Assembly: GCF_016629565.1 (NCBI RefSeq) | Contig: NZ_AP023057.1 | Span: 1,488,001-1,552,000 of the forward strand | Reading direction: 5' to 3' | Source of the DNA: Nitratiruptor sp. YY08-10 | GTDB taxonomy: Bacteria > Campylobacterota > Campylobacteria > Campylobacterales > Nitratiruptoraceae | DNA: 64,000 bases | In this document: positions 17,802-20,080 of the stretch, one piece after another | Layout: each line of letters begins with the position of its first letter | Numbering within the stretch: the stretch's first letter is position 1 | Notes under the pieces: generated by a model | The model's database searches: none | What the model was told of the DNA's origin: nothing | What the model saw: the letters and a program-made list of their open reading frames with translations, nothing else | Made by a program: the position numbers and the translations under genes

Positions 17802-17891
17802 ATGGCACCATCTGAGATTCTTGGTATTGTTTATGCAGGTCTTATGAGCGTTTCTGCTGTAACTTGGTTGGGATTCAACCTAAAAAAATAA
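17802..17891 (+). CDS. 29-residue single-helix membrane microprotein
   Basis: The frame begins MAPSEILGIVYAGLMS and ends WLGFNLKK followed by TAA. A strong AAGGAG lies at 17791-17796, 5 bases before the ATG. Residues 6-25 are uniformly hydrophobic with a positively charged tail, the shape of a small inner-membrane subunit or regulator with the C-terminus in the cytosol. A palindromic terminator begins at its stop codon and twin inverted repeats lie upstream, so it looks like a complete, separately regulated gene. No family is recognised. Confidence 0.55.
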   Translation: MAPSEILGIVYAGLMSVSAVTWLGFNLKK

Positions 17892-17910
17892 GGCTAAGAA
17901 TTCTTAGCCT
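17891..17910. terminator. Bidirectional palindromic terminator
   Basis: AGGCTAAGAATTCTTAGCCT is a perfect 20-base palindrome. On the plus strand it follows the mini-gene stop and is followed by T-rich sequence. On the minus strand it contains the stop codon of the LolD-type gene and is followed by TTATTTTTTT. It would separate the two convergent genes. Confidence 0.75.
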
Positions 17911-18584: not shown

Positions 18585-18686
18585 GCAGTAATACAAAAAT
18601 GCGGAAAATTGAGATACGAAGAAGGAAGGAAAGTCCTTCATAAAGATTTTAGGTGAAAAAAGTATTTTTGAAATATTTATTATTCA

Positions 18687-19153
18687 GTAATCTACCTGCT
18701 CCTATGCTCGCTCACGAAATTCCTTGAATTTCGGGCTTCTCTTTAGTCGCAGGTTTCAGTAAGGCACGAAGGACAAGCAGTTGTCCTTCTAAAAAAAAGC
18801 CTTTGGCTTAAACTAACCGCAAAGCTTCATTCACTTTGCTCATTTGCTTTGCTTCAAGGTAACTTAGCAACTCCTATGCTCATCACGAAATTCCTTGAAT
18901 TTCGGATTCGCATATAGTCGTTGCTTTCAGTGAGGCACGAAGGACAAGCAGTTGTCCTTCTAAAAAAAAAGCCTTTGGCTTAAACTAACCGCAAAGCTTC
19001 ATTCACTTTGCTCATTTGCTTTGCTTCAAGGTAACTTAGCAACTCCTATGCTCATCACGAAATTCCTTGAATTTCGGATTCGCATATAGTCGTTGCTTTC
19101 AGTGAGGCACGAAGGACAAGCAGTTGTCCTTCTAAAAAAAAAGCCTTTGGCTT
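18687..19153 (-). repeat. Tandem array of a 172-bp structured non-coding repeat (2.7 copies)
   Basis: This fills most of the gene-free stretch 18555-19162. Copy A starts at 18687, copy B at 18858 and copy C at 19030. B and C appear identical over their shared length; A differs mainly in the first 75 bases. Each copy holds a stem around a GAAATTC/GAATTTC hairpin, then AAGGACAAGCAGTTGTCCTT (A 18769-18788, B 18940-18959, C 19112-19131), then a GCC/GGC hairpin beside an 8-9 base A-run, which is an intrinsic terminator for minus-strand transcripts. The outer 6-bp stem is ACCTGC/GCAGGT in A (18694-18699 with 18749-18754) and AGCAAC/GTTGCT in B and C (18866-18871 with 18920-18925; 19038-19043 with 19092-19097). 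Three base pairs change in both arms. A partial fourth remnant may lie at 18617-18640. No protein of credible length is encoded. Confidence 0.85.
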
Positions 19154-19159
19154 TTTTTT
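19134..19159 (-). terminator. Intrinsic terminator of rpsB-tsf
   Basis: On the minus strand an A-run, GCC, loop AAA, GGC and nine T form a hairpin immediately after the tsf stop codon. It is the only repeat copy with A and T runs on both sides; the copies at 18792 and 18961 have the same GCC/GGC core and T-run, so three terminators follow tsf in tandem. Confidence 0.75.
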
Positions 19160-19162
19160 ACC

Positions 19163-20080
19163 TCACTTCATCTGAGCAGCGACTTCTGCAGCAAAATCCT
19201 CCTCTTTTTTCTCGATACCTTCACCAAGCTCATATCGGATAAAACCGATAATTTTCGCGCTGCCACCCGCAGCTTTAGCAGCTTCATCAATTACTTGTTT
19301 GACGCTCTTTTTGTCATCTTTTACAAATTTTTGTCCAAGAAGGGTGTTTTCTTCAACAAATTTTTTGATTTTTCCTGGAATGATTTTTTCGATGATATTA
19401 GCAGGTTTGCCCTCTTTTTCAAGTTGCGCTTTAGCAATCTCTTTCTCTTTTTCAATCACTTCAGCAGGAATGGATTCTTCATCAAGATATTTTGGATTCA
19501 TCGCTGCAATATGCATTGCTACATCTTTTAATAAATCTTTGATTGAAGCACATACCTCTTCTTTGTCACAGCTTGCAGCAACGATAACACCTATCTTTCC
19601 ACCCATATGAAGATAACCGTTGACAACGCCAGGTCCATCTACGCAGATTTTGTCAAATCGTCTTACTACGATATTTTCACCAATTTTCGCAATCTCTGCT
19701 TTCATATACTCTTCGAAAATCACGTTATCAATTGGTGTTTTGTAAAGCTCTTCTACACTTTCTACTGCACTCTGGGCAATATGTCCTTTTACTTTTTCAA
19801 CGAGTGATTTAAAGTTTTCGTTTTGCGCAACGAAATCTGTCTCAGAGTTTACTTCTACGATTGTCGCACATTTAAAATCATCGCTTACTTGAACGGCAAT
19901 TGTTCCTTCACTTGCCACTCTGTCTGCTTTTTTTGCTGCTTTTGCAATCCCTTTTTTTCTCAAGATTTCGATCGCTTTGTCCATATCTCCATTTGCTTCT
20001 TGAAGCGCCTTTTTACAATCCATCATACCAGCGCCTGTGCGCTCTCTGAGTTCTTTTACTTGTGCTGCGCTGATTGCCAT
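19163..20080 (-). CDS. tsf: Translation elongation factor Ts
   Basis: It exchanges GDP for GTP on EF-Tu. The N-terminal UBA-like region with LRERTGAGMMDCKKAL (10-25) and the core motif NSETDFVAQNE are diagnostic. Length is 305 residues. Its ATG overlaps the rpsB stop as TAATG, the usual rpsB-tsf operon arrangement. Confidence 0.97.
   Translation of the reverse strand: MAISAAQVKELRERTGAGMMDCKKALQEANGDMDKAIEILRKKGIAKAAKKADRVASEGTIAVQVSDDFKCATIVEVNSETDFVAQNENFKSLVEKVKGHIAQSAVESVEELYKTPIDNVIFEEYMKAEIAKIGENIVVRRFDKICVDGPGVVNGYLHMGGKIGVIVAASCDKEEVCASIKDLLKDVAMHIAAMNPKYLDEESIPAEVIEKEKEIAKAQLEKEGKPANIIEKIIPGKIKKFVEENTLLGQKFVKDDKKSVKQVIDEAAKAAGGSAKIIGFIRYELGEGIEKKEEDFAAEVAAQMK

Follow-up and report, generated by a model that had tools for sequence, protein, structure and literature searches.

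The 64,000-nt stretch of DNA analyzed here (the window) comprises positions 1,488,001 to 1,552,000 of contig NZ_AP023057.1 from Nitratiruptor sp. YY08-10. It carries tsf on the minus strand (open reading frame [ORF] 19163..20080) and, 3' of that gene, a tandem array at 18699-19153 with a period of 172, 2.6 copies and a 95% match by Tandem Repeats Finder. An initial annotation of the sequence had described three 172-bp copies following tsf, in which a stem changes at three of six base pairs while pairing is kept, and had proposed a new structured RNA under selection for its fold. Both the period and the stem change were borne out. On the plus strand, the outer stem reads ACCTGC (18694-18699)/GCAGGT (18749-18754) in copy A, AGCAAC (18867-18872)/GTTGCT (18920-18925) in copy B, and AGCAAC (19038-19043)/GTTGCT (19092-19097) in copy C; positions 2, 4, and 5 differ on both sides between copy A and the other two. 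On the minus strand, the opposed GA/GA and the CTA/TAG that comes after it are likewise present. Since copies B and C carry an identical stem, the array by itself amounts to one stem-change event, and it is the relatives that settle the matter.

In the tsf sense (minus strand), a fold of ~175 nt occurs three times in the array: a three-way junction, P1[P2,P3], is followed by P4, which contains tandem G-A pairs, and by P6, and the element ends in CGGTTA. The stem noted at first is P4 only; the element is longer, and in copy C, the complete one, it extends from the tsf stop codon (19165), where it starts between AAG and TGAGG, to ~18986. The P1 5' strand is missing in copies B and A, and P6 is also missing in copy A. 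An intrinsic terminator had been placed at the end of each unit; in the tsf-sense direction this hairpin (AAGCC-AAA-GGCTTTTTTT) is P2 and opens the unit. The parts of the array are given below, with scores from R1, a covariance model whose derivation follows.

18986..19166, minus strand: copy C, tsf-proximal, full element P1-P6, its initial TGA being the tsf stop codon (R1 cmsearch 18986-19171, 164.2 bits, E 1e-42)
18814..18984, minus strand: copy B, without the P1 5' strand, at a tandem fusion of TTTAAG with CCAAAGGC (R1 148.3 bits, E 2e-38)
18690..18812, minus strand: copy A, diverged, P2-P4 present, with the inner part of P4 and the P6 region degenerate (R1 80.6 bits, E 4e-20 over 18650-18812)
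19160..19166, minus strand: P1 5' strand of copy C, GTGAGGT including the tsf stop TGA (sequence; P1 pairs 100% kept in five tsf orthologues)
19102..19109, minus strand: P1 3' strand of copy C, TGCCTCAC (sequence; tsf orthologue comparison)
19134..19159, minus strand: P2 hairpin of copy C, A-run GCC-AAA-GGC T-run, terminator-like (sequence; the equivalent hairpins of copy B, 18981-18969, and copy A, 18809-18797, were also called terminator-like)
19111..19132, minus strand: P3 hairpin of copy C, stem GAAGGAC/GTCCTTC, with loop AACTGCTT kept across the family (comparative alignments)
19038..19097, minus strand: P4 of copy C, AGCAAC/GTTGCT, GA/GA, CTA/TAG, UA bulge, TGC/GCA, GA/GA and a distal hairpin (sequence and covariation)
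18991..19024, minus strand: P6 hairpin of copy C, GCAAAGC/GCTTTGC, then conserved CGGTTA (R1 search and covariation)
18939..18960, minus strand: P3 hairpin of copy B (sequence)
18867..18925, minus strand: P4 of copy B (sequence)
18819..18853, minus strand: P6 hairpin of copy B (sequence)
18768..18789, minus strand: P3 hairpin of copy A (sequence)
18694..18754, minus strand: P4 of copy A, stem ACCTGC/GCAGGT (sequence)

R1 was built from an alignment of 20 copies (A2) that was made with MAFFT, structure being ignored in aligning, and checked by hand. In A2, 93.3% of cells are paired and 27 of the 53 pairs show double changes, with a covariation score of 0.374 vs. 0.171 for shuffled alignments (0/500 shuffles as good) and ≤0.081 for slid controls. 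An alignment of 102 copies, which was fitted to the model, showed double changes in 50 of 53 pairs and a score of 0.488 vs. 0.153. The P3 loop (AACUGCUU) is near-invariant, as are the four tandem G-A motifs. On the tsf-sense strand there are 42 G-U pairs vs. 8 A-C mismatches, which supports the tsf-sense (minus) strand as the one that folds, as for an RNA, with the caveat that G-T wobble in single-stranded DNA would act alike, more weakly. These comparisons strongly support the view that evolution preserves the element's shape while its letters change, as had been proposed from the array.

A BLAST search with one array unit found copies in 14 of 41 genomes, including that of the window, and R1 matched 24 of 397 genomes of the class, in eight of 68 genera. 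R1 recovered ~100 copies in relatives overall, among them 35 in genome G018 and 13 each in G016 and G020, all three family members, and it found four in the window genome (G000); across relatives of one family, the number ranges from 0 to 35. The fourth copy of the window genome (C1:111880) lies between tRNA genes, the same location as in G016. The element family is found across Campylobacterota, with sizes of ~90-290 nt. A search of Rfam 15 gave no match at gathering score and nothing credible at E ≤ 10 or E ≤ 1, and the element is undescribed in the open literature searched. The suggestion of a new structured RNA was supported, and what had been taken for a local array proved to belong to a dispersed and apparently mobile family. 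A short form (type 2; ~100 nt, TGAG..CGTTAAG-P3-..GAACC) shares P3 with the long form (type 1); it is nested inside type 1 in G018 and forms tandem arrays in Sulfurovum and Arcobacter. Type 2 occurs in such arrays or as an insertion within the long form at L013 (minus strand, 1672-1779), L019 (minus strand, 1256-1363), L032 (421-528), L172, L187, and L194. It also lies in frame within hsdS, where the ORF stays open: GIGHM-RAVKSDDNCLSSVGSEPEALCESTADG-FKESEIG (L179, 1302-1407; L180, 2059-2164). Viral contigs (one P3 variant only), phages, and plasmids gave no element match.

The element starts on the stop codon of a co-directional gene in 19 of 71 copies, and the upstream gene is co-directional in 52 of the 71. 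For several G018 insertions, the orthologous sites in relatives are element-free. In five species with different CRISPR repeats (G002, G004, G008, G016, and G020), the element lies within the last, trailer-end repeat at the same base, between AAG and GGG (insertions at L018, 1440-1680; L016, 1441-1670; L020, 1441-1620; L046; L013; and L019). These copies have short inverted ends, GTGAGC/GCTCAC, seen in CRISPR copies only; no common terminal inverted repeats were found among the G018 copies. Some of the element-carrying arrays adjoin RT-Cas1 genes, and the three reverse transcriptases (RTs) examined near CRISPR loci are all RT-Cas1; since G018 is without an RT, this proximity may be incidental. 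In G036 (L076), too, the element family adjoins a CRISPR array. On both sides of a Campylobacterales copy (L074, 1400-1680), the initial ~46 nt of an hsdS-like gene are found, which makes for a long target duplication. The intergenic flanks of the G018 elements (L105-L143) are full of heptamer-like short repeats (GGTAAGG, GGGATAG, CCAATTCC, and CTAATGA), and in G003 and G004 (L004, 1100-1400; L019, 2400-2600) end hairpins of the IS200/IS605 type adjoin element fragments.

Copies 3' of tsf (five species) and 3' of frr (six species) group by locus and not by genome, and vertical descent of these copies is therefore most likely. Among the five tsf orthologues, 97.6% of cells are paired and 16 of 51 pairs show double changes; the values for the six frr orthologues are 93.0% and 9 of 48. 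At both loci the fold is maintained by compensation, a pattern that neutral decay is not expected to give. Termination or 3'-end stability would be the simplest guess at the role of the tsf copy.

When 84,980 species genomes were scanned for an exact pattern, 29 loci came up, mostly in Campylobacterota and also in Patescibacteria. The Patescibacterial hairpin covaries and its loop is kept, and 11 of the 13 loci (L201-L205 and L247-L254) sit immediately downstream of a tRNA or tmRNA gene. The arms flanking P3 are complementary to the T-arm of the tRNA, often to the acceptor too, and at six of the 11 loci the element ends in a direct repeat of the tRNA 3' end, 16-49 nt long. In the predicted fold of L254, the tRNA 3' half serves as the 5' strand of P1/P2; for L251, the lowest-energy structure is without this pairing. 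R1 alone scores several of the loci at E 2e-4 to 0.02. Kinship with the Campylobacterota element is likely but short of proof, since P3 sequence was what the loci were selected on.

Our favored and best-supported explanation, with a probability of about 0.7, is that the array consists of three copies from a new family of small, mobile structured-RNA elements that spreads by insertion, some copies having long been retained at gene 3' ends. Transcription of the upstream gene would run on into the element, which would form the 3' end of that transcript and fold as RNA. The fold would be needed for mobilization in trans by a putative factor, for a role in termination or stability still served at the 3' end, or for both; P2 of the tsf copies resembles a terminator. 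Tandem duplication of the old copy at tsf would have given rise to the window array. What is probably this fold in Patescibacteria takes the adjacent tRNA 3' half as its P1/P2 5' strand, which would suggest that target complementarity matters for insertion. A bolder version, which we put forward only tentatively and think rather doubtful, is a bacterial "SINE-like" (short interspersed nuclear element) mobile element acting at the RNA level through a putative mobilizing factor, whose site would be chosen by pairing of the two P3-flanking arms with the target, i.e., tRNA 3' ends in Patescibacteria and CRISPR repeats and stop codons in Campylobacterota.

Several results weigh against a mobile RNA family. 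Y1 transposases were absent from G000, G016, G018, and G020. IS110 was absent from G000, G018, and G020 and, among 27 genomes, occurred only in G016, G021, G080, and G013, other insertion sequence (IS) families being outside the search; in G016, an IS110 lies next to two element copies. TnpB-type proteins (PF07282; IscB itself was not searched for) and RTs (RVT_1) were absent from G000 and G018, and Nop-domain (Tas) proteins from all 17 genomes searched with the Pfam Nop model, which divergent Tas proteins could escape. Y1, RVT_1, IS110, Nop, and TnpB were rejected as mobilizer since the genome richest in copies has none of them. Patescibacteria and one hsdS case show clear target-site duplications, with no support for a general one in Campylobacterota, and the empty orthologous sites might in principle be losses instead. 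Should P2 act as the tsf terminator, only read-through would yield P3-P6 RNA. The upkeep of the fold at tsf and frr shows that selection acts on more than mobility. For Patescibacteria, the independent evidence of kinship comes down to the P4 match, the site, and the arms.

Vertically retained tsf and frr copies with compensatory changes, a terminator-like P2 at tsf, and the sense orientation with a start at the stop codon would also be expected if the fold were in the first place a host 3' untranslated region (3'-UTR) RNA of tsf, frr, and other genes (a terminator, stability element, or 3'-derived small RNA), with dispersed copies secondary and mobility not the reason for the fold. However, the spread from 0 to 35 copies among relatives of one family, the copies within CRISPR repeats, and the short form in frame in hsdS speak against such an origin; moreover, P2 of most copies is without a U-run and the flanking genes show no shared theme, and we consider it unlikely. 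Movement as DNA, with the hairpins of a miniature inverted-repeat transposable element (MITE) or repetitive extragenic palindromic (REP) sequence recognized in single-stranded form by a Y1 or IS transposase, would agree with the palindromic, intergenic, tandem, and nested copies and with the inverted ends of the CRISPR copies. Yet Y1 is absent from G000, G016, G018, and G020 and IS110 from G000, G018, and G020, the G018 copies share no terminal inverted repeats, G-U pairs exceed A-C mismatches, and covariation extends over several helices, unlike IS-derived MITEs, which makes this explanation improbable.

The RT-Cas1 loci beside some copies, the IS110 adjoining two copies in G016, and the bipartite arms complementary to the neighboring tRNA in Patescibacteria could point to a known RNA-guided system, with the element as its guide or scaffold (IS110 bridge RNA, TnpB/IscB omega RNA, TIGR-Tas, or a CRISPR tracr-like RNA). 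Since IS110, TnpB, and Nop are absent from G000, G018, and most carriers, Rfam gave no match to HEARO or other families, and the majority of copies are distant from CRISPR, this reading was already disfavored and seems very improbable. Chance or artifact, i.e., a coincidental stem change in a neutral tandem duplication, could appeal to the single stem-change event within the array; it is refuted by every comparative test (A2, the 102-copy alignment, and the tsf orthologues) and deserves next to no credence. Among other identities considered, an integron attC site was dropped (GTTAAGC of the short form fits GTTRRRY; no second core site was seen), as was box C/D (GUGAUGA in P4, a position that covaries and is not conserved); kink-turn and hammerhead motifs were incomplete.

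In its spread, the uncatalogued family, which spans Campylobacterota and probably Patescibacteria, behaves like a dispersed palindromic-type element. It shares with MITEs a dispersed, multi-copy, non-coding distribution that varies between relatives; of their inverted repeats and target duplications, it has GTGAGC/GCTCAC in CRISPR copies only and direct repeats at six of 11 Patescibacterial loci and one hsdS copy, and of the candidate cognate transposases tested (Y1 and IS110; other IS families fell outside the test), G000 and G018 have none. Rickettsia palindromic elements (RPEs) and MITEs such as Correia and ERIC are short, dispersed, and palindromic, form stable stem-loops in intergenic or in-frame positions, and have no mobilizer of their own, and ERIC may sit at gene 3' ends (PMC10969869). 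The present element is likewise a short dispersed palindromic stem-loop element, intergenic or in frame, that encodes no mobilizer; unlike them, it folds into several helices that covary deeply, with tandem G-A motifs and a loop that is near-invariant, it is strand-asymmetric, it occupies stop-codon, CRISPR-repeat, and tRNA sites, and it is without common terminal inverted repeats. Like REP sequences and their associated tyrosine transposases (RAYTs), it presents extragenic palindromes at gene ends in tandem clusters, but it is far larger and branched, and its richest carriers are without Y1 proteins. HEARO/omega RNAs of IscB-type elements are structured RNAs coupled to insertion and are reported next to ATGA/GTGA; the RTGAG start of the present element resembles this, whereas the TGA stands at its 5' end and there is neither an Rfam HEARO match nor an associated ORF. 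The P3-flanking arms in Patescibacteria resemble the bipartite target-complementary segments of IS110 bridge RNAs and TIGR-Tas guide RNAs (PMC12045711), although most carriers are without IS110 or Nop and the Campylobacterota arms pair within the element. G000 and G018 have none of the partner proteins tested for REP/RAYT (Y1), bridge RNA (IS110), TIGR-Tas (Nop), and group II introns or retroelements (RT); for HEARO/omega RNA, there is neither the Rfam match nor, in these two genomes, a TnpB-type protein.

The family is sizeable, its covariation is very clear, and it connects tRNA genes and CRISPR arrays with the 3' ends of genes. If the arms guide insertion, it would represent a novel mode of movement for so small an element, and if the tsf and frr copies are domesticated, they would be mobile RNA folds turning into parts of 3'-UTRs; since cultured Nitratiruptor strains exist, the element is testable. 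Elsewhere in the window, between prfB and a LolD-like ABC gene, 17803-17892 (plus strand) may encode a 29-aa small membrane protein, MAPSEILGIVYAGLMSVSAVTWLGFNLKK.
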